From Desulfobacca acetoxidans DSM 11109 (GTDB lineage Bacteria; Desulfobacterota; Desulfobaccia; Desulfobaccales; Desulfobaccaceae): a DNA stretch of 64,000 nucleotides. The stretch covers positions 2,170,001 to 2,234,000 of the forward strand of contig NC_015388.1 in assembly GCF_000195295.1 (NCBI RefSeq), read 5' to 3'. Positions 4,822 through 19,000 of the stretch are shown here, in pieces. The notes under the pieces were generated by a model. The model was not told where the DNA came from, did no database searches, and saw only the letters and a program-made list of their open reading frames with translations. The translations under genes were made by a program, and so were the position numbers. Numbering within the stretch: position 1 is the stretch's first letter; every line of letters starts with the position of its first letter.

Positions 4822-5856
4822 ATGCTCGTTCTGGACGGGTCATATGGTGAAGGGGGCGGCCAGATAATTCGTACCTCCCTGTCGCTGGCCGCCCTCACCG
4901 GTAACGCCATACGACTGGATCGGATCCGCTACGGTCGAAGGCAACCCGGTCTCAGGCCGCAGCATCTTACTGCCGTCCGCGCCCTGGCCCAGGTTACCCA
5001 TGCTGCTCTAACCGGAGACGAGATCGGCTCCACCTGCCTCACCTTCTCGCCCCAGGGAATTTTCCCCGGCAACTACACCTTTGATGTCGCTGAAAAAACC
5101 GGTAGCGCGGGTTCGGTCTGCTTAATCGCCCAAACACTGCTGCCCGTTCTGATTTTTGCCGATGCGCCTTCTAGTCTGATCATCAAAGGTGGCACTCATG
5201 TACCTTGGAGTCCGCCGGCGCATTATCTTAACGCCGTTTTTCTTCCGGCGCTAAGAGAGATGGGCCTGAACGCAGACCTGGAAATAATCCGATGGGGATT
5301 TTATCCTTTGGGAGGAGGAGAGATCCGACTGCGGCTGGCACCGGTTCAAGAACTCAATGCCATAGACTGGACCGACCCACCGGCGGCAACGGATTTTCAA
5401 GGTTTGTCGGCCGCAGCCAATCTTCCTGCCCACGTTACACGGCGCCAGATGCAGGCTCTGCAACAATCTTTGGATTGGCCCCTGCGTATTTTGGAAGAAA
5501 AGGCTCCCAGCCGGGGAAAAGGCAGTTTCGTATTTCTCTGGGGACCGCATGCCGGATTCTCGGCGTTGGGGGCTCGAGGCAAACCGGCCGAGAGCGTCGC
5601 GCTTGAAGCGGCTATGGCACTGAAACGTTTTTTAACGCTTAGAACCGGGGTGGACTGCCGTCTGGCAGATCAGATAGCGTTGTATGCCGCCCTGGCCGCA
5701 GGTGTCTCCAGGTTCAGCAGCGAGATGATCACGTCTCATCTGCTCACCAATATTTGGGTGATTGATCGGTTTTTAGGCCAAAGGTTTGCAGTGCAGGGTA
5801 ATCTGGGGGGTACGGGAATAATTATGGTGAAAGGTAGCCGGGGTTTTAATCGGTAA
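4822..5856 (+). CDS. rtcA: RNA 3'-terminal phosphate cyclase
   Basis: RtcA uses ATP to convert RNA 3'-phosphate ends to 2',3'-cyclic phosphates through an adenylated His intermediate. The 344-residue length is normal. Signatures include LDGSYGEGGGQIIRTSL at the N-terminus, RRQPGLRPQHLTAVRAL, and GSAGSV with KGGTHVPWSPPAHY in the centre. The C-terminal SEMITSHLLTNIWV carries the likely adenylated His, by analogy with E. coli RtcA. In enterobacteria rtcA is regulated by RtcR and paired with the ligase gene rtcB; neither partner is seen here. The gene ends immediately before the convergent sensor gene, with zero intervening bases between the two coding ends. Confidence 0.95.
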   Translation: MLVLDGSYGEGGGQIIRTSLSLAALTGNAIRLDRIRYGRRQPGLRPQHLTAVRALAQVTHAALTGDEIGSTCLTFSPQGIFPGNYTFDVAEKTGSAGSVCLIAQTLLPVLIFADAPSSLIIKGGTHVPWSPPAHYLNAVFLPALREMGLNADLEIIRWGFYPLGGGEIRLRLAPVQELNAIDWTDPPAATDFQGLSAAANLPAHVTRRQMQALQQSLDWPLRILEEKAPSRGKGSFVFLWGPHAGFSALGARGKPAESVALEAAMALKRFLTLRTGVDCRLADQIALYAALAAGVSRFSSEMITSHLLTNIWVIDRFLGQRFAVQGNLGGTGIIMVKGSRGFNR

Positions 5857-8670
5857 TTACTGACCACTGACCGCAGACCACTCATCCCTGAGGGCATTCT
5901 CCGGCTGCGTTCCTGCATCTTCTGCATCGATTACTTCCGGTTTGACCGTTTTGCCGCCCCCTAACATGGCCGCAATTTTCTGTGACAGGGCGGCAATGCG
6001 ATATGGTTTCTGAATGAATCCCAAGGCCCCTTTCTCCATCATCAGGTGCACATCTTCATCCATGCTGTGTGCACTGTAGAGCAGTACCTTGATTTCCGGG
6101 TCGATCTCTCTCAACCGGTAAAAGGTTTCCCGCCCGCTCAGGCCGGGCATAACCATATCCAATACCACCAGGTCAATTTCCTCCCGACGCTCCTGCACGA
6201 TGGCAATTGCCTGCATCCCGGTGGCCGCCGGGATAACCTTATATCCCAGTCTACCTAAAATCCGGGCGCCTATAGCCCGCACCGGTTCCTCGTCGTCTAC
6301 CAACAGAATGACCCCGGAACCCCTCACAAACCGCAGCGGGCGCGGCTGATAAGTTTGCACCGGCTTCTTCGAGACCGGCAGATAGATGTGGAATGTGGTG
6401 CCAAAAGCAGCCTCACTGTCCATTTCAATAATGCCCTGGTGATTTTTAATAATAGAATACACCGAGGCCAGAGAAGGCCGGCCCTCACTCCCTACTTCTT
6501 CCGACACCACAAAAGGTTCAAAAATCTTCCCCTGCAACTCGGCATTTACGACCAACTGCGGAAAATTAAACGCAATATATACATAGGGGCCGGGCAACCG
6601 GTTGTAAGGTTGACAGAATTCCTCATCCAAAACAACTTCCTCGGTGCTGATGGCGACCTCCTGAACCTTGGCGCCTCGGGGCCTCCCCATCAACAATACA
6701 TTGACCAAAACCTGTTCAATCTGCCCCTGGTCAACTTCAGCAGCCGGCACTTGTGGCCCCGGTCGGTAATGAATCCGCATCTGTTTGTGGGAAAATCGCA
6801 GCAGTTTGATGATCTTGTCGATAAGCAGATTCAGGTCCACCGGTTTAAGACTGAAATGCCGTTGTCCAAACGATAATAACTGGTCAATCAGTTCAGCGCC
6901 TTTGGTTACTTCCTGCTCAATCTGTTTGAGGTCATTATAACCCGGCCCCGTCGGCTTCAGATCGGCCAGTACCAGACCGTTGAGTATCAGGATATTGATC
7001 AATATATCATTGAAATTTCGAGCCCACCCCGATGCTAGAGCACCGATGGCCTCCATCTTCTGCTGTTGCAGCAACTGCCGCTCCATCTTTCTCATGGAGG
7101 TAACATCGTTAATCATCGCAAAAGACCCGACATATTGCTCCTCTTCCATGAGAGGTACTGAACTCAAAATAACTGATATTGTCTTGCCTTTCGGCGTCTG
7201 GAGTTCCAGTTCCTGCTGTGCCACCTTGCCCTTGCGGTTCTGTACTAGCATGGTGGCTAAAAACTTGCTGTTATCACCCCTCAGGAAGAGAGAGAGCTCT
7301 TTCCCCTCAAGATGTTCTTCGTCGATAATCTCCCGCAGACGGCGATTAGCAAACCGAATAATCCCCTGTCCGTCAATGATCCAGATTCCTTCGTAGGCGT
7401 TCTCCACCAGTTCCCGATATCGCCGTTCCGAAATTTCCAGTCTACGATGCATCAGGGCGCTGTCTAAAGCCATGGCGATCTGATGGGCAAAGTTCATGAC
7501 CAGCTCTTTGTCGATGTCGGCAATATGAGGATCGCACCGCATCCTGTCGGCCAGGATCACCCCGATGACCTTGCCGCGCACCGATATAGGAGCCAGAATG
7601 AATGCCTTGGGCTGAAAAAGTTGAATGAGCTGATTCCCCTTGTTCAAACGGCTGTGGGCCACATCGTTGATAACGACAGGGATGCCGTTGATGGCAACCC
7701 GGGCAATGACGTTATCCACCTTCGAAACCGGTATCTTATAATCTTTTACCTTCTCGTACAGGGTTGGATCAATCCCTACTCCACAGTGGATCTCTAAATG
7801 ATTTGATGCCTCGTTAAGTAAAAAAACCCCGGCCCGATCTAATTTGGCGAACCTGATTAAGAAATTTAGGGTGACCTGCAGCAGACCTTTCAGATCAACC
7901 GCAGTCAGGGCCGCCATACAGGTTTCCGGCAGAGACATGAGCTGATCGATCTTCTCCTTGAGCTGCAGATTCAGATGATGTACTTCATCGTATTTCCGCT
8001 TTAAAATCTCCTTATCTTTCTCCAACTCCTGGATGGTATCCCGCAATAACCGCCAGGGGAGAAATACACTTCGCAGCCATTTCTTTAAGCGCGATCGGTC
8101 TTCCCACGTACAAAAATACTCACAATAATCATCCCCATGGAAATAACAGCGCCTTTCCTCTAAATCCCCGGGCGGCAGATGCCAGATGGTCGGCATGGCC
8201 GTCAGGATGCCCCGATTAAAGAGACAGAAATCTTCATCAGCCGGGATATGGCGAAAATAACGAAACTTGACGACCGCCTGGCAGCGACCGATAAACTGCA
8301 CCTCCACCGTCTTGTTGCGGTTGAACTTATCGCTGATTACCTGAATCTTTTTCAAGGCCAGGCGCGGGTTGCCAAAGGCCTGGGTAATAATCCGTTGAAC
8401 ATAGCCGAATTTCTGTTTAGTAGCAGCATAGCTGCCGATCTTGAAAGCTATCTCATCATCCTGACTCAAGCTCCTGGCTTTCTTGAACATTTGGATGACC
8501 ACGTCGCTGGACACCCAGTTGTTGATGTCGGTGAGGAACTCCTGCGGATTTGGCAAGACTTCTATTTCAGGATGTAAATCCTGGAGGAGGGTAGGGGTTA
8601 GGGCAGGAAAATGCTCCTGAAAATAATCAATGATTACCTTGGTGTTCAGGCATCCATGATGCTTTTCCAT
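5857..8670 (-). CDS. hybrid sensor protein with GAF, PAS, degenerate histidine kinase core and intact receiver
   Basis: The order is an N-terminal region ending in a V4R-like patch (CYFHGDDYCEYFCTW), a coiled coil, a GAF domain, a PAS domain, a kinase-like region and a receiver domain. The kinase region keeps the family outline but not its catalytic residues. The H-box reads GALASGWARNFNDIL, so the phosphoacceptor His is Arg551. The N-box Asn position is Met661 (VLLMGRPRGA). The G1 DxG and G2 GxGLGL motifs are replaced by NFPQLV and EGRPSLAS. In contrast the receiver has its acidic pair (D792, D793), phosphorylation site D838 (LDMVMPG), Ser/Thr and Lys. I infer an output or phosphate-sink protein that cannot autophosphorylate. 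It is tail-to-tail with rtcA, and its last residues read through a 7-bp-period repeat. Confidence 0.9.
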   Translation of the reverse strand: MEKHHGCLNTKVIIDYFQEHFPALTPTLLQDLHPEIEVLPNPQEFLTDINNWVSSDVVIQMFKKARSLSQDDEIAFKIGSYAATKQKFGYVQRIITQAFGNPRLALKKIQVISDKFNRNKTVEVQFIGRCQAVVKFRYFRHIPADEDFCLFNRGILTAMPTIWHLPPGDLEERRCYFHGDDYCEYFCTWEDRSRLKKWLRSVFLPWRLLRDTIQELEKDKEILKRKYDEVHHLNLQLKEKIDQLMSLPETCMAALTAVDLKGLLQVTLNFLIRFAKLDRAGVFLLNEASNHLEIHCGVGIDPTLYEKVKDYKIPVSKVDNVIARVAINGIPVVINDVAHSRLNKGNQLIQLFQPKAFILAPISVRGKVIGVILADRMRCDPHIADIDKELVMNFAHQIAMALDSALMHRRLEISERRYRELVENAYEGIWIIDGQGIIRFANRRLREIIDEEHLEGKELSLFLRGDNSKFLATMLVQNRKGKVAQQELELQTPKGKTISVILSSVPLMEEEQYVGSFAMINDVTSMRKMERQLLQQQKMEAIGALASGWARNFNDILINILILNGLVLADLKPTGPGYNDLKQIEQEVTKGAELIDQLLSFGQRHFSLKPVDLNLLIDKIIKLLRFSHKQMRIHYRPGPQVPAAEVDQGQIEQVLVNVLLMGRPRGAKVQEVAISTEEVVLDEEFCQPYNRLPGPYVYIAFNFPQLVVNAELQGKIFEPFVVSEEVGSEGRPSLASVYSIIKNHQGIIEMDSEAAFGTTFHIYLPVSKKPVQTYQPRPLRFVRGSGVILLVDDEEPVRAIGARILGRLGYKVIPAATGMQAIAIVQERREEIDLVVLDMVMPGLSGRETFYRLREIDPEIKVLLYSAHSMDEDVHLMMEKGALGFIQKPYRIAALSQKIAAMLGGGKTVKPEVIDAEDAGTQPENALRDEWSAVSGQ
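5862..5889. repeat. 7-bp-period repeat, four units
   Basis: Four heptamers in phase read GACCACT, GACCGCA, GACCACT, CATCCCT. They overlap the last codons of the leftward sensor gene, giving its C-terminal residues, and begin six bases after the rtcA stop. They resemble the GCYCACT-type arrays at 10028 and 61437. Confidence 0.6.
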
Positions 8671-9109
8671 GTCTGCCGCCCTGACGAGAAAGGAGTTTCT
8701 GGGTTGAGAGGGTGCATCCTGGCGCCCGTTATCACAGAATTGAACATTTGCGCAATGAAGCGGCCGAAATGAACGATCGTTGACCGCATAGCCTCAAAAA
8801 TCATCGAGCCAAACAAATTCTGCCAACTTCACTTTTCATATTTCTAACATATATGTTCATGTTTTTAGACATATTCGATATTATACTAACCTATTAAAAT
8901 TATTTGTCAATATATTTCGACATAATGGTTTTAATTAATTAACAGACGGAATAATCGAAAACCATACACCATCTGCCAACAATCAGAGACCAGCAGCCAG
9001 CAACCCAACTTTGTGACAACTGTCCTATCTGTTCTGTCTAACTTGCTTATATATCAATAATATCCTGGCTATCCGAATTGCTTCGGCACAATACCCAAGG
9101 AGGATAGCC
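8671..9109. other. AT-rich divergent intergenic region
   Basis: This region of about 440 bp lies between the leftward sensor gene and the rightward acyltransferase gene. It holds a perfect 12-bp palindrome, AACATATATGTT, at 8846-8857 (possible operator) and a 28-nt repeat at 9005-9032. No gene is visible. Confidence 0.5.
9005..9032 (+). repeat. 28-nt dispersed repeat, copy 1
   Basis: This stretch matches 58553-58580 with one mismatch, including an exact 20-nt core from 9013 (GTGACAACTGTCC...). Both copies lie about 70-80 nt upstream of a start codon on the same strand, so a shared regulatory or promoter-proximal role is possible. Confidence 0.7.
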
Positions 9110-10117
9110 ATGCAAAACATCCTTAACCGCTCGCCCAAGAAGCGACTCAACCTCAGCAAGTTTTGTCAGATGCACCTTAGCCGGTCTCTGGCCCGCCGCG
9201 TTCCTTTCCCAGTCTCCCGCTTCTACCTTTCCTGTATCGGGAAGTTGTACTACCTGCTGAATCCCCAGGAGCGTGATCTCATCTGCCATGCCATCACCCA
9301 GGTCTTTGAGCCGCGCATGCCGCAGTCCGCTTTATCAGGGCTTATTGCCCGCACCTTCCGCGGCATCTTCACCCATTATCAGGAAAAGCTCTTTTTGGCC
9401 TATGCCCCGGTGAATCGCGTGAAGGCGGAATTACAGCAGCGTCTGCAGATCCGGGGCGCAACCGAGCTAAAGAACGCCCTGGACCGCGGTTGCGGGGTCA
9501 TCCTGGCCACCGGACATTTCGGTGCCGTGGAATTTCTGCCCGGTGCCCTGGCACTTCAGGGCTGGCCGACGGCGATCATTGTCCGGCCGCAAACCAAGGA
9601 ACTGGCCGCCTCTCTGACGTCTCGGGCGGCTCTCATCAATCTCAAACTGATTTTTCCCGAGCATGGCAAGGTCCTGCCCGCAGCCCTAAAGTCCCTCCGG
9701 GAAGGCCGGATTCTGATTACCGAGTGTGACGAATTTGAACAATGGCGGCTCAACCCGGAGCAGCCCGTGGATTTTTTGGGCTTCCACCTCCCGAGTGATC
9801 GCACCCTGAACGTTTTACAGAAGCGCTCCGGGGCGCCGGTGCTTACGGCCTTGGTCCGACGGGAACCGAAGCGGCAATACTGTGTGCAGCTTGCCGGGGT
9901 ACCCGCCTTCTCTTCCACACGCGAGACGAGTGCTCTTTGTTTGCATCGCCTCCAGGAAGAGATCTTCAGACATCCCGAACAATGGTACCAGTGGAAAGAG
10001 TTCGGCCGATTTATTGCGGCCTTGCCAGCCCATTGCCCACCGCCCACTGCCTACCGTTCACTGTCCGCTGTCCCCTGTGCATTGAATTGTGCGGTGCTGA
10101 CCACTCAAGGAGGGTAG
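9110..10117 (+). CDS. LpxL/HtrB-family lipid acyltransferase, paralog 1
   Basis: Members transfer acyl chains to lipid A precursors or related lipids at the inner membrane. The catalytic HX4E motif is H136-FGAV-E141 in ILATGHFGAVEFLP, and a downstream TECDEFEQW segment also suits the family. The N-terminus (RLNLSKFCQMHLSRSLARRVPF..SRFYL..IGKLYYL) is shared with the paralog at 14137, whose catalytic His has the same residue number. The ribosome site is AAGGAGGA. The last 30 or so residues (PAHCPPPTAYRSLSAVPC...) come from a 7-bp-period repeat and differ from the paralog, so the native C-terminus probably ended near FGRFIAAL. The stop is 4 nt before fabF, suggesting coupling. The acceptor lipid is not predictable. 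Confidence 0.82.
   Translation: MQNILNRSPKKRLNLSKFCQMHLSRSLARRVPFPVSRFYLSCIGKLYYLLNPQERDLICHAITQVFEPRMPQSALSGLIARTFRGIFTHYQEKLFLAYAPVNRVKAELQQRLQIRGATELKNALDRGCGVILATGHFGAVEFLPGALALQGWPTAIIVRPQTKELAASLTSRAALINLKLIFPEHGKVLPAALKSLREGRILITECDEFEQWRLNPEQPVDFLGFHLPSDRTLNVLQKRSGAPVLTALVRREPKRQYCVQLAGVPAFSSTRETSALCLHRLQEEIFRHPEQWYQWKEFGRFIAALPAHCPPPTAYRSLSAVPCALNCAVLTTQGG
10028..10083. repeat. 7-bp-period repeat, eight units, inside the 3' end of a gene
   Basis: Eight consecutive heptamers run GCCCATT, GCCCACC, GCCCACT, GCCTACC, GTTCACT, GTCCGCT, GTCCCCT, GTGCATT. The consensus is about GCCCACT. The array is in frame with, and forms most of, the C-terminal tail of the upstream acyltransferase. Confidence 0.75.
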
Positions 10118-10121
10118 TTCA

Positions 10122-11447
10122 ATGTTAAGCGGCAAGATTATCAATCTTCGAAGGGTCGTAGTAACCGGTATGGGTCTGGTAACCCCTTTGGGAAACTCCC
10201 TGTCTGATTCCTGGAAAAAATTAGTGGCCGGCTGCTCGGGAATTGCTCAGGTAACGAAGTTCGCCGCCGACCTGCAGGAATTTTGTCAACGGTATAAAAT
10301 TCCTGAAGACTTTCCACTCATCGCCGGTGAAGTAAAAGACTTCGATTTTAAGGCCCGGATGCTATCAGCTAAACCTGACCTGACTAAAGAAGACCTGAAA
10401 CTGGCCAAGTACACCGATAGTTTCACCCAATATGCCCTGACCGCCAGTTATGAGGCCTTGGCGCAGTCCCGGTTGGATCCCTCAGTCGAAGACCCGGAGC
10501 GCCTCGGCACTATCATCGCTACGGGCATGGGCGGCGTCGCCAGTTGGGAAGAAGCCTGCCGAAAGTTTGATCAAGAAGGGGTGAAGAGGGTTTCTCCTTT
10601 CATGGTTCCCAAACTGCTACCCAACCTGGCTGCCGGGAACGTAGCCATCAGCATTGGCGCCCAGGGACCCAATACCGCCCTATCCAGTGCCTGTGCCGCC
10701 GGCGGGCAGGCCATCGGCGCCGCCTTTCGATCTATTCAACTGGGCGAGGCCGATATCATGCTGGCCGGAGGGGCGGAAGCGGCACTGACGCCTCTGACCG
10801 TGGCGGGTTTCTATCGTATGGGTGCCTTGGCCACCGGTTTTAACGACCGTCCGGAAGCCGCCAGCCGACCCTTTGATCAAGAGCACGCCGGGTTTGTCCT
10901 GGCTGAGGGGGCTGGCATCATGGTGCTGGAAGAGTTAACCCACGCCTTAAACCGGAATGCTCCTATATTCGCTGAGTTGAGCGGCTTTGGCATGTGTGGC
11001 GATGGTCACCACATTACCGATCCCGATCTCAAAGGTGCTATCCGGTGTATGCGCCGGGCGATGCAGGATGCTGGCATAGAGCCCCGTGAGATCGACTATC
11101 TCAATCCCCACGCCACTTCGACGCCGGTAGGAGACCGAAATGAGGCCCGGGCTATCAGCCAACTCTTTCCTCAGCAGCCTGCCGTCAGCGCCACCAAATC
11201 TTTGACCGGTCATCTCTTGGGAGCTGCCGGGGCTGTGGAGGCCATTTTTACTGTGTTGTCGGTGCACCAGGAGGTGATACCGCCATCCCTGAACCTCGTG
11301 GAAATCGATCCGGATTGTGCCGGTCTGTCCCTGGTAGCAGGTGAGGCTCAGAACCGAACGGTTCGTTACGCTCTCTCTAATTCCTTCGGCTTCGGCGGCA
11401 CAAACGCGGCGTTATTGTTCAAGAGATATCCGTCATGGATTCTTTAA
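10122..11447 (+). CDS. fabF: beta-ketoacyl-ACP synthase II (KAS II)
   Basis: FabF condenses malonyl-ACP with an acyl-ACP to lengthen fatty acids in the cytoplasm. The family triad is visible: Cys191 in SSACAAGG, His330 in NPHATSTPVGD and His364 in KSLTGHLLGAAG. The C-terminal NSFGFGGTNAALLF is also typical. The N-terminal VVVTGMGLVTPLGNS is classical. At 441 residues it is longer than usual (about 410), with an insertion around residues 35-90 (KFAADLQEFCQRYKIPEDF...), as in some deltaproteobacterial FabF. The start has AAGGAGGG nearby. It is sandwiched between an acyltransferase and a hydroxyacyl-CoA dehydrogenase, so it may be a pathway-specific copy, not the housekeeping enzyme. Confidence 0.92.
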   Translation: MLSGKIINLRRVVVTGMGLVTPLGNSLSDSWKKLVAGCSGIAQVTKFAADLQEFCQRYKIPEDFPLIAGEVKDFDFKARMLSAKPDLTKEDLKLAKYTDSFTQYALTASYEALAQSRLDPSVEDPERLGTIIATGMGGVASWEEACRKFDQEGVKRVSPFMVPKLLPNLAAGNVAISIGAQGPNTALSSACAAGGQAIGAAFRSIQLGEADIMLAGGAEAALTPLTVAGFYRMGALATGFNDRPEAASRPFDQEHAGFVLAEGAGIMVLEELTHALNRNAPIFAELSGFGMCGDGHHITDPDLKGAIRCMRRAMQDAGIEPREIDYLNPHATSTPVGDRNEARAISQLFPQQPAVSATKSLTGHLLGAAGAVEAIFTVLSVHQEVIPPSLNLVEIDPDCAGLSLVAGEAQNRTVRYALSNSFGFGGTNAALLFKRYPSWIL

Positions 11448-11477
11448 ACCGAACCGCAACAAGGGAAAGGAATACTC

Positions 11478-12374
11478 ATGCAAACTCAGGAAATTAAAAA
11501 AATGCTCGTCATCGGCGCCGGCCTGATGGGCCGCCAGATCGCCCTCCAGGGTGCCCTTTTTGAGGTAGAGGTAGTCATGTATGGCCGTTCCGAAATTTCT
11601 CTGGCCCGAGCCCGCCGCCATCTCAAGCGATATGCTTCCTATCTCACTCAAGGTGGGTTTATCGGTTCGGACAAGGCTGCCCAAGCCCTGAAGCGCATCA
11701 CCTTGACCACAGATCCAATCGTCGCAGCTGCCAATGTAGACCTGGTAAGCGAATCGGTTACCGAAAACCTATCGCTGAAACAGCAGATTTGGGCTCAGTT
11801 CGGGCCGCTGCTCCCGGCTCAGGCCATTTTGACCACCAATTCATCTATGCTTCTGCCATCCGAATTTGCTGCCGCATGTGGTCGGCCAGAGCGATTTCTG
11901 GCATGGCATTTTCACCAGCTCTGTTTTATCAAGAATGTCGTGGATATCATGCCGCATGCACAAACCGATCTGCAATACGTCCAAACCCTAACGGAGTTTT
12001 CCCGCCGTCTGCAACTCCAACCGATCGTACTCAGGAAAGAACATCGCGGTTACGTCTTTAACGCCATGCTGACCAACCTGCTGACGGCAGCCCTGGAATT
12101 AGTCGTTGCTGACGTGGCCAACGTTGAGGATATTGATCGGGCCTGGAAGACAGTTATGCAGACGCCGCAGGGACCTTTCGGCATCATGGATGGGGTGGGA
12201 TTAGACACTGTGGCCCATATTCTGCGCTTTGGAGTGGCCGTAGCCCCCGAAAATCCTCTCTATGCGGGAGCTTTGGAGTGGCTGCAACCGAAGATCGAGC
12301 AGGGCCATTTAGGACAAAAAACCGGCAGGGGATTTTATAGCTATTCCCGCCCCAAACTGGCGTCAGTTAGTTGA
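11478..12374 (+). CDS. 3-hydroxyacyl-CoA dehydrogenase family protein
   Basis: The enzyme family oxidises 3-hydroxyacyl-CoA (for example 3-hydroxybutyryl-CoA) with NAD, or works in reverse. The Rossmann nucleotide loop is at the N-terminus (MLVIGAGLMGRQIA). Further family marks are ADLVSESVTENLSLKQQ, TTNSS and a WHFHQ segment in place of the usual GMHFFNP, then a C-terminal helical domain with GPFGIMDGVGLDT and GRKTGRGFYSYS-like ending. At 298 residues it is of normal single-domain length (about 285). It starts 30 nt after fabF with AAGGGAAAGG upstream, so acyltransferase, fabF and this gene form one likely operon. It converges on fadL with one base between stops. The exact substrate is uncertain. 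Confidence 0.85.
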   Translation: MQTQEIKKMLVIGAGLMGRQIALQGALFEVEVVMYGRSEISLARARRHLKRYASYLTQGGFIGSDKAAQALKRITLTTDPIVAAANVDLVSESVTENLSLKQQIWAQFGPLLPAQAILTTNSSMLLPSEFAAACGRPERFLAWHFHQLCFIKNVVDIMPHAQTDLQYVQTLTEFSRRLQLQPIVLRKEHRGYVFNAMLTNLLTAALELVVADVANVEDIDRAWKTVMQTPQGPFGIMDGVGLDTVAHILRFGVAVAPENPLYAGALEWLQPKIEQGHLGQKTGRGFYSYSRPKLASVS

Positions 12375-12375
12375 A

Positions 12376-13629
12376 TTAGAATTTACAGGAGAGGCTGAAA
12401 CCCAAAGAATGATTGTCACTTTCATATTTGCCATTGGCTTGGTTGGCCGCCGGCAACGGTGTGCCATTAATCGCCAACATGTTTGCTTTGGAACGATTTT
12501 CACTCAGGATGTAGTTGTAGGCAAACCCGAGGGTGAAGCGACCGATTTGGGTATCACCGCCAATGGTAAAAATATGCCGGTTGGCATCGGGAATGGTCGG
12601 GTCGAAGGTGTCGGAAGGCACTGGCGTCAGATCGTAGATATAGCCCACACGAGCTTTCATGCCGGGGCGAAGTTCGTAATTGGCACCGAATCGGAAGGCC
12701 CAGGTATCGTCCCAATTTTTCTCCTGCAGGATCGAGGAAAGAGTGGCAGGCGGAATTGTTGCCGGGATTGGCTGGTTTAGTGTGAGGAGTAGGTTCTTGT
12801 AGGTTGACCAGCCCGTCCAGGTTACGTCGAATTCAAAGACAAAAGGTTTGATCCGGCTATAGGCGCAACCCCAAGTCACCGAAGGAGGGAAGACCACATC
12901 CGCCTCACCTCCGACATTATCTAGCAGAGAGACGCTCAGATCGCCGCTATGGGTCACCTTGATCTCACTCCGATAATGGACACCCAACTTGACGCCTTCC
13001 ATCGGTTCATACAACAACCCCAGGTTATAGCCGAAGCCAACCCCATCGCCCTTGAAATCATTGTCGATATCCCGCAACGGGGGTACAAAGCGGACGGTCT
13101 TGCGGCGGATCTGCACCTTCGACCATAAAACGTCAAAACCCACGGCGCCGGATAAGTTATCGAGCAGTTTCACCGAGATTACCGGATTGAGGTTAAATGT
13201 CTGCAGCTTGGACTTGGTGGTGAGGTATTGTCCGGCCCAGGTCGAGGGCCACTCGGTTCCTAAACCGAAGGGGGTAAACAACCCCAACCCGGCGACAAAA
13301 CGTTCATTCAGAGGCAAAACGGCATAAAAGGCGGGTACAGAAAAGATCTCGTGTTTGGCGGTGGCATGTAGACCCGTCGGGCTATTGTAGGTGCGATTGG
13401 TACTGCTGAGAACCGAATTAAGGTAGATCTCAGGTTGCTTTAACTGGATCAAACCGGCGGGATTGTAAAAGATGGCAGAGGGATCATCAGCTTGTGCTAC
13501 GAAAGCATTACCCTGGGCCATTGCCGCCGTCCCCTGCTGCAAGACGGCGAAGCCGGCTGCATACACCCCAGATACCTTCCATAACACCATGCACAAAACT
13601 ATCAAGTAGACGGCAACGTCTCTTGGCAC
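12376..13629 (-). CDS. FadL/OmpP1-type outer-membrane long-chain fatty acid transporter
   Basis: FadL-type beta-barrels pass hydrophobic compounds across the outer membrane. The mature N-terminus (GFAVLQQGTAAMAQGNAFVAQADDPSAIFYNPAGL) is the family hallmark and forms the hatch. GLGLFTPFGLGTEW, alternating barrel strands and a final aromatic residue (SLSCKF) follow. I start at GTG 13629, which has AAAGGAG seven nt upstream and gives a normal signal peptide (VYLIVLCMVLWKVSGVYA). The ATG at 13698 would add a second hydrophobic stretch. Its position opposite a FabF and hydroxyacyl-CoA dehydrogenase operon suggests a role in fatty acid or hydrocarbon uptake, which is inference. Confidence 0.9.
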   Translation of the reverse strand: MPRDVAVYLIVLCMVLWKVSGVYAAGFAVLQQGTAAMAQGNAFVAQADDPSAIFYNPAGLIQLKQPEIYLNSVLSSTNRTYNSPTGLHATAKHEIFSVPAFYAVLPLNERFVAGLGLFTPFGLGTEWPSTWAGQYLTTKSKLQTFNLNPVISVKLLDNLSGAVGFDVLWSKVQIRRKTVRFVPPLRDIDNDFKGDGVGFGYNLGLLYEPMEGVKLGVHYRSEIKVTHSGDLSVSLLDNVGGEADVVFPPSVTWGCAYSRIKPFVFEFDVTWTGWSTYKNLLLTLNQPIPATIPPATLSSILQEKNWDDTWAFRFGANYELRPGMKARVGYIYDLTPVPSDTFDPTIPDANRHIFTIGGDTQIGRFTLGFAYNYILSENRSKANMLAINGTPLPAANQANGKYESDNHSLGFSLSCKF

Positions 13630-14136
13630 GGGTCGGCTCCTTTCTTGTTTGAGGTGCAGGCTAAAAAAGGGGAGGAATATTAAAATTCTTTTTAGCATAC
13701 TTTAAGCTAAGCAGCAATCATTTTGTTGCCAATTTTAAATATTTAAACGAATAACCATATTGTTATATTATCGGCATATCTAATAATTTAATAAATTATT
13801 AGAGGCAAATTATTACGACAAGATAATATATTTATATTGTATCCTATTAAATTATCTGCAATATTCGAGATATTATTTTTTTCTCTAAAATAAAATTTTT
13901 TTTACAATCAGTCGATAAAAAATGTAAAAATATAATTCACAAATTCATATGAAACGGGTATAATTCGTTCATCCTGACAGAAATAATTTTTTAAGCAGAT
14001 ACGTCCTCATACTGCTCCTGGCGGGAACAATGTGATCTGGCCGGTAAGCATAAATGGAGAGGTATCTGTAAAAGGAGCGAAGGCCATTGTTTGGCAATTT
14101 ATTGCAATAATAGAAATATGTTAAAAGGAGATCATC
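13630..14136. other. AT-rich divergent intergenic region
   Basis: About 500 bp, visibly AT-rich, lies between fadL (leftward) and the second acyltransferase (rightward). The best signal is the promoter at 13936-13964. No gene is seen. Confidence 0.5.
13936..13964 (+). promoter_or_regulatory. sigma70-like promoter for acyltransferase paralog 2
   Basis: TTCACA (13936-13941) and a perfect TATAAT (13959-13964) have an ideal 17-nt spacing. The leader to the ATG at 14137 would be about 165 nt. Confidence 0.6.
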
Positions 14137-15123
14137 ATGAATCCGAAACAATTTATCTCCCGTCGGCTGCGTCTCAATCTCAGCAAATTCCTCCAGATGA
14201 GACTGAATAGCTGGTTGATCCGATTCCTGCCCTTCTTCCTTTCACGCTGCTACCTCATTGCTTTAGGCCGACTCTACTATTTTTTCAATCGCAAGGAAAA
14301 GCAATTAATTAAGCAGACCATTACCTATGTCTGGAGTGAGAAATTAACTGCTTCAGAGCTGCGCCGGATGGTCCGAAAGACTTTTAAGGGTATCTTCGAT
14401 CACTATCACGAAAAGCTTTTTTTGGCCTATTCCCCTTTTAATCGGGTGAAAAAGTTCCTGGGTAAACGACTGCGATTCGAGGGCGAAGAAGCGCTGCAGC
14501 AGGCCTTGGCGGCCGGGAAAGGCGCCATTCTGGCCACCGGCCATTTTGGCGCGGTGGAATTCCTGCCGGCGGCGTTGGCCTTTAAAGGCTATAAGGTCGC
14601 CATTATTTGCCGTTTTCAGACAAGTCGACTACGAGACACGTTAGTTGAGCGCGCCGGGCAGGTGGATCTCGAAGTAATTGACGCGGACCGCGGCAACTGC
14701 CTTTTAGCGGCCCTGAAAGCATTGAAACAGGGAAAGATTATCATTACCGAGTCAGATGAGTTTGATGAGTGGAAGGCAAAGGATGATTACCAGATCTCTT
14801 TCTTGGGTGCCTGGCTGGACTATGACCGATCTCTGGACATTTTGAGCAAACGCTCAGGCTCTCCGGTGGTTTCAGCCTTAGTGAGCCGCCATGGCAAGGG
14901 TTATGCTCTGCAGTTGACCCCCATTACCCTAAAATCGTCGACTGAAACGAGGATGGGAGAAAAGTGCCTGGCAGTGCTGGAGAATATGCTCCAGGCGTGT
15001 CCGACACAATGGTATCAATGGAAAAAATTCGGCAAGATGATCAGTCCATATCTGGAAAACATCGCGCCAGCAGTCAAACCTTCGTTGGCACCGGCGCGTT
15101 TTACTCTTCGCCATGCACACTAA
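14137..15123 (+). CDS. LpxL/HtrB-family lipid acyltransferase, paralog 2
   Basis: This 328-residue protein is a clear paralog of the one at 9110. They share RLNLSKFLQMRL, the LYYFFNRKE segment, KGIFDHYHEKLFLAYSPFNRVK and the catalytic ILATGHFGAVEFLP, with H136 and E141 at identical positions. The second motif is TESDEFDEW. It should acylate a lipid A-like or other glycolipid acceptor at the inner membrane. The ATG has an AAAAGGAGATC ribosome site. Unlike paralog 1 it stands alone in its transcript, and its C-terminus lacks the repeat-derived tail. The two genes may act on different positions of one lipid; this is inference. Confidence 0.82.
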   Translation: MNPKQFISRRLRLNLSKFLQMRLNSWLIRFLPFFLSRCYLIALGRLYYFFNRKEKQLIKQTITYVWSEKLTASELRRMVRKTFKGIFDHYHEKLFLAYSPFNRVKKFLGKRLRFEGEEALQQALAAGKGAILATGHFGAVEFLPAALAFKGYKVAIICRFQTSRLRDTLVERAGQVDLEVIDADRGNCLLAALKALKQGKIIITESDEFDEWKAKDDYQISFLGAWLDYDRSLDILSKRSGSPVVSALVSRHGKGYALQLTPITLKSSTETRMGEKCLAVLENMLQACPTQWYQWKKFGKMISPYLENIAPAVKPSLAPARFTLRHAH

Positions 15124-16043: not shown

Positions 16044-19000
16044 ATGTTGTCCCAAAGTACAGTTGCCCTGGCGGCATTTGGTTATCTACTATTCCTGTTC
16101 GCATTAGCTTTTTATGGCGACCGCCGGCGGTCTCAAGGCCGCAGTCTGATTGCCAATCCGTATATCTATACCCTCTCATTAGCTGTTTATTGCACCTCCT
16201 GGACGTTTTATGGCAGTGTCGGCAAGGCGGCTACCCAGGGAATGGTTTTTCTCTCGACCTACCTGGGGCCGACTTTGGGGGCTTTCGCCTGGTGGTTTGT
16301 GGCTCGCAAAATCCTCCGGGTGTGCAAGGAAAACAATCTTACGACGCTTTCCGACTTTTTGGCGCTGCGTTTTGGGAAAAGCAGTTTTCTGGGCGCTCTG
16401 GCTACTGTGGGGGTGTTGCTGGCTATAATCCCCTATATCGGACTCCAACTAAAATCGGTTTCTGACACGTTTACTATCTTGGTACACCGTAATGTTGCGG
16501 TCCTTGGCCGAGCCAATATCTTGCAAGACACCGCTTTCTATGTGGCCCTGATTTTGGTCATATTTGGCATTCTTTTCGGGGCCAGGCATCTTGATCCTAC
16601 CGAACGTCACGAGGGTATGGTGGCGGCGGTGGCTTTTGAGTCTCTGGTCAAGCTGCTTGCTTTTCTATCAATCGGCGTTTTGGTCTCGTGGGTGCTATTT
16701 TCGGGTTGGGGCGACCTCTTCGGTCGCATCAGTCGCCATCAGGATTTCAGCCGATTGCCTTATTTGAACACCAATCCTTTAAATACCTTTATGTTATTCC
16801 TGGTGGAAAGTTTATTGGCCATGGGAGCCATTATTCTGTTACCCAGACAGTTTCATATGACCGTTGTCGAGAATACGGAAGAGAGGCATCTTCTTACCGC
16901 CATGTGGTTGTTGCCGTTGTATTTTTTCCTTATTAATCTGTTTGTTGCACCTATTGCCTTTGGCGGCCTGCTCTTGGGTTTGCCGCAGATGCAGGCCGAT
17001 ACCTTTGTGCTGCGTCTCCCTTTGGAGCACGGCTATCCATTCCTGGCCCTCCTGGCCTTTTTGGGAGGGTTGTCGGCCTCCACCGCCATGGTGGCCGTGG
17101 CCTCCATAACCGTCAGCACCATGTTGTTAAACACCTTGATTATGCCATCGGCTCTGCGTCTCCACCTAGCAGACCATCTTTCGCCGCATCTTCTACTGAT
17201 CAAGCGTCTGGGCATCTTGATCGTCATTTTATTGGGGTACGGCAGTTATCGTTTGATTGGCGTTTCCATGATGTTGGTGGACATGGGACACATCGCCTTT
17301 TGTGGTGTGGTCCAATTGGCCCCGGCGGTTTTAGGTGCCCTGTATTGGCGGGAGGCAAACAAAAATGGGGCGATAGCGGGTATAAGTATCGGTTTTGCTC
17401 TTTGGGCCTATACCCTTGTCCTGCCGCCCATGGTGGAATCAGGTTGGCTGCCAACCTCTATCTTGACCTCGGGTCCATGGGGCTTTCCCTGGCTCAAACC
17501 CACCTCTCTTTTTGGTCTTATCGGGTTGGACAATCTCTCCCATGCCTTTTTCTGGTCAATGACGAGCAACATCCTGGTCTTTGTCTGCGTCTCGGTGCTC
17601 ACCCGACCCGATTCCGAAGAAGAAGAGCAGAGCGGGCGTTTTGTCGACATCTTTATCGGTGAGGCGGGCCGCCGGAGGGAAAAACGCTTTACTTATCTCC
17701 CGAGCCTGGATCAGCTTACCCAATTTATGGCAAAATTCATCAATCCGCAAAAAGCGGCCGAAGCCCGCCAGCAATTCCTTGATGAGAATAAGAACCGAGA
17801 AGAAGAATGGGGCGATCAGGAGAAGATGCAGCTTGCTGAGTTCGTTGAGCGCACCATTGCCGGTTCTATCGGACCGGCTGCCGCTCGGATCATCATGGAC
17901 GGTTATCTTTCTTCGGTAGGTTCCAGGATGGAAGAGGTTTTTGATCTCTTCGGGAGGATCACCAGTTCTTTGGAAGAGAGTCAGGAGCAACTTAAACGCC
18001 GGGTGGCGGAGCTCTCGGTGCTCTACGAAGCCGCGCGCAAGCTTACCTCCTCTCTATATATGCCCGAATTGATGGAAGGCGTGTTGGATCTGTTGGTGAA
18101 TCGTTTAGGGGTGGAGAGGTGCGCCGTCCGGCTCTTGGATGGGGACGGTTTTCTGCGCATTAAGAGCTCCCGTAACCTATCGCCTATGGCAATGGAGATA
18201 AGCATCAAACCCGACATGCGGCCTCTCTTGGGGCAATGCCTTCTCACTCCTCAGGTTATTTCGGTGGCGGATAGCTCTATCGTCTGGGACCGCCTGCAGG
18301 GGTTGTATGAAGAGGAGCCGATGGCTTCTTTTGTCATGGCTCCGATCGCCACCGAAACGGTGTCGCTAGGCGTCCTCACTGCGGCTAGCAACCAAAAAGG
18401 TTTTTTTGCCAAGGAGCACGTCGAGTTTTTCCAATCCCTGGCTGGTCAATTGGGCCTGGCGGTGCGCAGCGCCCAGATGGTGGCCCACCACATCCGCAAC
18501 CCCCTGGTAGCTATCGGCGGCTTTGCTCACCGGTTGGCCAAAAAGCTCCCGCCCGGATCGATTACTCAAAAATACGCCGAAATTATCATTAAAGAGGCAG
18601 AGCGGCTCGAAAAGATGGTGGGTGATATAGTTGAGACAACCGTCGTGGCTATTCCCCGGGAGGAGGAATCCGATATCAATCAGGTGGTGCGCGGCGCTTT
18701 AGGCATCATGAAAGAAGCCTTCGAAAAAAAGCAGATTAAATTAAGAGTGAATCTGGCCGATGGTCTGTCTCCTCTGACCATGGATGTGGGTAATTTAAAA
18801 AGGGCTTTGCTGCAACTGATTGCTAATGCCCTGGAGGCCCTGCCGTCGGGGGGCTCTCTGGAAGTTGTCACTGCGCAAAGTCCCGACGGTTATGTTCAGA
18901 TTCAGATTATTGATAATGGCAAGGGAATTCCTGCCGCCATATTGCCCCATATTTTCGATGCCTTCTTCTCTACTAAGCCCGCCGGTCCGGGTTTAGGTCT

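Follow-up and report, generated by a model that had tools for sequence, protein, structure and literature searches.

A hybrid histidine kinase of Desulfobacca acetoxidans without catalytic motifs, probably maintained as a sensor with a phosphorylatable receiver

The 64,000-nucleotide stretch of DNA analyzed here (hereinafter the window), part of a Desulfobacca acetoxidans genome that consists of a single contig of 3,282,536 bases, contains a gene for a hybrid histidine kinase (HK), denoted P0001, in which the phosphoacceptor histidine and the N, G1 and G2 boxes are all replaced and the active site of the receiver is kept. Comparative analysis supports the classification of P0001 as a pseudokinase, not a decaying gene, and this protein probably is retained as a sensor offering a phosphorylatable receiver to its fellow signaling proteins.

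Domain organization of P0001

The gene for P0001 occupies positions 5857-8670 of the minus strand, the strand having been left unspecified in the original prediction. As originally predicted, the frame is open over 937 codons; it has an ATG start and no internal stop, and full-length homologs of the 937 amino acid product are present in the order. The predicted V4R-like, GAF and PAS sensory domains are recovered as well. The N-terminal V4R/H-NOX-like domain (residues 1-200; 8071-8670), delineated from an alignment of 30 homologs (A1), a sub-threshold V4R match and the predicted fold, is followed by a predicted long helix or coiled linker (residues 201-254; 7909-8070), in which 85% of the columns are invariant in the genus, and by the GAF (residues 259-402; 7465-7896; PF01590, E = 7e-16) and PAS (residues 417-524; 7099-7422; PF13426, E = 6e-10) domains, both recognized by Pfam. 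The two-helix dimerization and phosphoacceptor (DHp) domain without its histidine (residues 530-602; 6865-7083) was mapped from the predicted helices 524-568 and 576-602 and from alignment with canonical HisKA relatives. It precedes a HATPase_c-like (CA) domain devoid of ATP-site residues (residues 609-766; 6373-6846), for which the CA fold is predicted and the PF02518 match, spanning residues 710-767, is below the cut-off. The receiver (residues 788-899; 5974-6309; PF00072, E = 6e-24) is the last of the domains. Downstream, a gene for RNA 3'-terminal phosphate cyclase (4822-5856, plus strand) is convergent with the pseudokinase gene, the last bases of the two genes abutting with zero gap, and the same gene order is found in the congener G003.

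Loss of the catalytic motifs and preservation of the receiver

The catalytic motifs were compared across 21 homologs, namely the four copies from the genus, copy A from a genome of another family of the order (G010), and 16 canonical proteins. Read column by column, all 16 canonical homologs contain H551, N661, D703, G705, G707, G729, G731 and G733 (P0001 numbering), and nine more distant family members from other Desulfobacterota also possess canonical motifs. In the window protein, the same columns are occupied by R, M, F, Q, V, E, R and S, and replacements are found in all four genomes of the genus: R at 551, M at 661, F/A/V, Q/Y/T/A and V in the G1 box, and E, R and S in the G2 box. Thus, the original prediction correctly placed arginine at the phosphoacceptor position (R551, codon CGA, 7018-7020) and methionine at the N-box asparagine position (M661, 6688-6690), and the DxG and GxGLGL motifs that it reported as missing are indeed gone: the G1 box (DxGxG) reads FPQLV (residues 703-707; 6550-6564), and the G2 box (GxGLG) has become E-x-R-P-S (EGRPS, residues 729-733; 6472-6486), with E, R, P and S invariant in the genus. 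In the genome as a whole, P0001 has the sole HATPase_c match below the Pfam cut-off among the 48 found in a census that rests on searches (22.4 bits, the next lowest match scoring 31.7). This outlier, taken with the sharing of the substitutions by 4/4 genomes of the genus, speaks for more than a chance occurrence.

A further replacement, absent from the original prediction, affects the residue four positions after the phosphoacceptor (H+4; residue 555, 7006-7008), which is asparagine in all 16 canonical homologs and aspartate in all five members of the clade that unites the genus with G010 copy A (hereinafter the dead clade). In the HisKA kinase CrdS, the equivalent N375D substitution abolishes measurable kinase activity and any significant phosphatase activity (PMC3510030). 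Because this change eliminates both activities in CrdS, P0001 should, by homology, be dead in both directions. The possibility that P0001 acts solely as a phosphatase, dephosphorylating a partner regulator without any kinase activity of its own, was considered because HK phosphatase activity hardly depends on the histidine, CrdS H371A being still capable of dephosphorylation (PMC3510030); nevertheless, with the required H+4 asparagine lost throughout the clade, we rejected this role as improbable.

The F-box (IFEPF, residues 716-720; 6511-6525) and G757 are retained. Together with the preserved CA fold, the F-box might point to a non-canonical kinase with a different nucleotide site or a different acceptor residue, and there is a parallel in the subfamily 2 ethylene receptors, for which, in the absence of the HK residues, a Ser/Thr kinase role has been proposed (PMC1781942). 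However, every nucleotide-contacting motif of P0001 is gone, several having been replaced by bulky or charged residues, and the alignment reveals no alternative histidine in DHp helix 1, so we assign this possibility a low probability as well. Taken by its features, P0001 lacks those that define an active HisKA kinase, that is, the DHp histidine, the N, G1 and G2 boxes and the H+4 Asn/Thr, and it displays features of a pseudo-histidine kinase: an HK fold by descent, a loss of catalytic residues that is conserved among orthologs, and a gene under selection.

The receiver, by contrast with the lost kinase motifs, retains both acidic residues (D792 and D793), the phosphorylatable aspartate (D838), the Ser/Thr (S866) and the lysine (K888), the three aspartates being at the positions originally given. 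All complete receivers in the dead clade contain these residues; the G001 contig stops before D838, and the full receiver is visible in three genomes of the genus. Judging by its residues, the receiver appears competent for phosphorylation.

Purifying selection on the degenerate kinase

All four genomes of the genus that we examined share the substitutions, including the arginine and the methionine whose presence in orthologs was a key question for the original prediction, and the window copy shares 72-79% identity with the remaining three. In the closest pair, G003/G001, dN/dS is 0.05 for the DHp domain, 0.04 for CA, 0.04 for GAF and 0.06 for the V4R-like domain, at a synonymous distance of about 1; in many other pairs, synonymous sites are saturated. 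For the CA domain, pN/pS is 0.06-0.30 within the genus, similar to the 0.23-0.27 obtained for the catalytic orthologs from the sister genus, and the receiver, in pairs with complete receivers, evolves at a dN/dS of about 0.08-0.10. Neutral simulation of residues 525-775, in which the number of substitutions per site was set to 0.3 and thus to roughly one third of the synonymous distance actually observed, yielded a mean of 5.6 stop codons and an expected identity of 53%, as opposed to the observed zero stops and 92% identity. The genus-specific residues W549, R551, D555, M661, R663, P664, R731, P732 and S733 are invariant. The DHp-CA fold is still predicted by AlphaFold, and the PDB matches include CckA, ZraS and other kinases; in this model, the ATP-lid region, residues 719-730, is of low confidence.

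Recent decay of the gene, or a sequencing error, could be invoked given that many motif residues are changed and that the kinase part, judging from branch lengths, evolves somewhat faster than the remainder of the protein. However, the identical changes occur in four independently sequenced genomes, the frame is open in all of them, and the sequence evolves under purifying selection, which makes this explanation extremely unlikely; recent decay in particular is ruled out by the shared substitutions, the dN/dS values and the neutral simulation. Orthologs with intact motifs, which might have indicated recent decay, were found only outside the genus, and hence the loss is old. Because the same substitutions are present in 4/4 genomes and the dead region is under strong purifying selection, the pseudokinase is not decaying, and the sequence comparisons show that the entire P0001 chain, including the dead DHp-CA region, is subject to such selection.

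The strength of selection on the DHp-CA region, which in the closest pair matches that on the sensory domains, and the invariance within the genus of W549, R551, R663, P664, R731, P732 and S733 are also compatible with a different role, in which the dead DHp-CA region binds and controls a kinase or a response regulator, the receiver of P0001 itself is regulatory or makes only contacts in cis, and phosphorylation of D838 is not essential. The precedent is DivL of Caulobacter crescentus, in which the HK core has been repurposed to bind DivK~P (PMC4211667). The receiver of P0001, however, fully keeps its catalytic residues and is constrained, which would be needless if phosphorylation were irrelevant, and we regard such an allosteric role as a plausible but rather doubtful alternative.

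Order of the catalytic losses

In the phylogenetic tree, G010 copy A joins the genus with 100/100 support, and this grouping persists (100/99) when the kinase columns are removed; a clade uniting G010 copies A and B is rejected (AU test, p = 0.0002). The same grouping without these columns and the AU test jointly eliminate convergent loss in G010 copy A, as well as long-branch attraction via the degenerate kinase columns. In G010 copy A, the N, G1 and G2 motifs and the H+4 asparagine are gone and His551 is kept. Canonical motifs are found in the sister genus (3/3 genomes) and in G010 copy B, and these sequences form a group with 79-86% bootstrap support. Given that copy A, within the dead clade, lacks the ATP site and retains the histidine, the most parsimonious order of events is that the ATP site and the H+4 asparagine were lost first and the histidine later; loss of kinase catalysis before the diversification of the genus is the best explanation of these data. 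The divergent copies possibly originated by a duplication that antedates the split of the families or by lateral transfer. A scan of contigs detected one further dead-clade record, which, judged by length and identity, is the same contig as the G002 copy.

Taken together, these genomes might preserve a series that we outline only tentatively. An active hybrid kinase would have given rise to a form that lost the ATP site and the H+4 asparagine and kept the histidine and the receiver, as in G010 copy A, which could be phosphorylated only in trans, presumably by the active paralog in a heterodimer; the histidine would then have been lost in the genus to which the window belongs, so that a dead body would remain through which V4R-like, GAF and PAS signals gate a receiver in the pathway of the active partner.

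The N-terminal sensory module

The predicted model of the N-terminal domain (mean pLDDT 82) has H-NOX as the closest fold (Z of about 17 over 173 residues, 2.6 A), and the MopR sensor domains, which belong to the aromatic-sensor type, yield a weaker fold match (Foldseek E of about 1e-3); a profile search of this domain against solved structures produced no match, the similarities being by fold alone. The V4R family (PF02830) matches P0001 with 12.2 bits, below the gathering score of 31, and 25 of the 30 homologs likewise match it below the cut-off (best E = 4e-5). A V4R/H-NOX-like fold is supported by the predicted model and these sub-threshold matches. No histidine that could serve as the conserved proximal haem ligand characteristic of H-NOX is invariant among the 30 sequences of alignment A1, only the N-terminal H4 being nearly so. 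In contrast, C149, E172, C175 and C183 are invariant in this alignment, and this Cys-Glu-Cys-Cys set may correspond to the zinc ligands of MopR/DmpR; the invariant Cys and Glu residues suggest a putative zinc site as in V4R proteins.

The domain defined by this module of approximately 200 residues was found in 53 of 395 genomes, and in Desulfobacterota it precedes several outputs, which were read by eye: hybrid kinases, HisKA_3-type and HisKA kinases, and apparent HD-GYP proteins. Fusions of the module to apparent HisKA_3-type kinases, short HisKA kinases and HD-GYP proteins are encoded at loci L025, L060-L064, L028-L030 and L034-L037. The V4R/H-NOX-like domain thus appears to serve widely in Desulfobacterota as an input module, one for which no Pfam model reaches its cut-off.

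Candidate partners and the proposed mechanism

An active full-length paralog with the same architecture (L002 type) is encoded elsewhere in the genome (G000:C1:517171-520140). Among the 29 genomes of the order that were searched, this type is limited to the genus, where in G002 the gene is split over two contigs. The dead clade and an active full-length paralog co-occur in five of five genomes, the paralog being of the L002 type in the genus and copy B in G010, and the three genomes of the sister genus possess the active ortholog only. The co-occurrence, which represents just two independent lineages, is no more than suggestive. The kinases at 16044 and 19469 of the window, named in the original prediction as potential donors, keep the N, G1 and G2 boxes, lack a receiver, and are found near the pseudokinase gene in the same order in the congener G003 (75% and 67% identity, respectively); in two genomes of the sister genus, neither was detected in the approximately 7-10 kb flanking the active ortholog. 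We consider the full-length paralog to be at least as good a candidate for the phosphoryl donor as these two kinases. By eye, the alpha-1 helix of the P0001 receiver is closer to those of the active orthologs than to that of the paralog, which makes recognition by the DHp domain of the paralog less certain. A search with Pfam Hpt yielded no stand-alone HPt in the genome, where divergent HPts would be missed, and a single Hpt match within a large frame; given this result, we consider it unlikely that the P0001 receiver takes part in a classical relay, and we set aside a relay of this kind.

Accordingly we lean, with some reservation, toward the explanation that P0001 is a hybrid kinase without catalysis that is kept as a non-enzymatic, sensor-gated receiver charged in trans. 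Under this explanation, the V4R/H-NOX-like, GAF and PAS domains would bind signals, and the DHp-CA body would serve as a dimerizing scaffold through which these signals determine how the receiver is folded or how accessible it is. An active kinase would most likely donate the phosphoryl group in trans, for instance the full-length paralog acting alone or in a heterodimer with P0001, the kinases at 16044 and 19469 being alternative donors. P0001 could then function as a sensor-gated receiver, a phosphoryl sink or a modulator of the active kinase.

Genomic neighborhood

The genus pseudokinase locus and the loci of the active copies (G010 copy B and the sister genus) have a neighboring acyltransferase gene in common and, within the family, also a FadL-type porin gene, and G010 copy A is found in a different context. 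In the window, positions 9110-15123 encode two lipid A-type acyltransferases, a ketoacyl synthase, a 3-hydroxyacyl-CoA dehydrogenase and a FadL-type porin; these genes stay together in the genomes of the genus, as far as the contigs or stretches reach, and in the sister genus the active kinase ortholog adjoins an acyltransferase and the porin. The intergenic stretch that separates the pseudokinase gene from the divergent acyltransferase/ketosynthase/dehydrogenase operon contains a block, TTTGTGACAACTGTCCTATCTGTTCTGTCTAACT (9010-9043, plus strand), located some 70-100 bases ahead of the start of the acyltransferase gene (9110). This block is nearly unchanged in 4/4 genomes of the genus, whereas the rest of the intergenic stretch has diverged. 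No second copy of the block, with up to 3 mismatches allowed, was found in the genome. This block is likely to be the promoter/operator of the divergent operon.

Relationship to known pseudo-histidine kinases

To our knowledge, well-studied pseudo-histidine kinases are few and come mainly from Caulobacter and plants. P0001 resembles DivL in that both are multi-sensor HKs in which the phosphoacceptor histidine is replaced in orthologs, DivL functioning without kinase activity. Unlike P0001, however, DivL has tyrosine in place of the histidine and keeps the other boxes (H, N, G1, F and G2), whereas P0001 lacks N, G1, G2, the histidine and the H+4 asparagine, and carries a receiver. The subfamily 2 ethylene receptors ETR2 and EIN4 of Arabidopsis similarly combine an HK-like domain lacking essential residues with a receiver (PMC1781942), but these are plant receptors that signal through CTR1, and their likeness to P0001 lies in the shared HK and receiver modules. 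In Caulobacter, the hybrid HK CCNA_03265 (CC3162) lacks the conserved histidine and keeps the receiver aspartate, and phosphorylation of this aspartate by an HPT has been suggested as one possibility (PMC11481889). Compared on these residues alone, it is like P0001; unlike in P0001, where DHp helix 1 offers none, a nearby alternative histidine was considered in that case. The closest proteins by architecture are the active orthologs from the sister genus and wider Desulfobacterota (L013-L024, L045 and L108-L115), which share the V4R-like/GAF/PAS/DHp-CA/REC arrangement and align along almost their entire length at 33-54% identity but, unlike P0001, are all canonical in their catalytic motifs.

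Pseudo-histidine kinases thus are already known, and P0001 is unusual for the completeness of the loss, which extends to the phosphatase residue, and for the surviving intermediate. Automatic annotation would label this gene a histidine kinase. With the catalytic form, the intermediate and the fully dead form all available in related genomes, the order of loss and the remaining function are directly testable.
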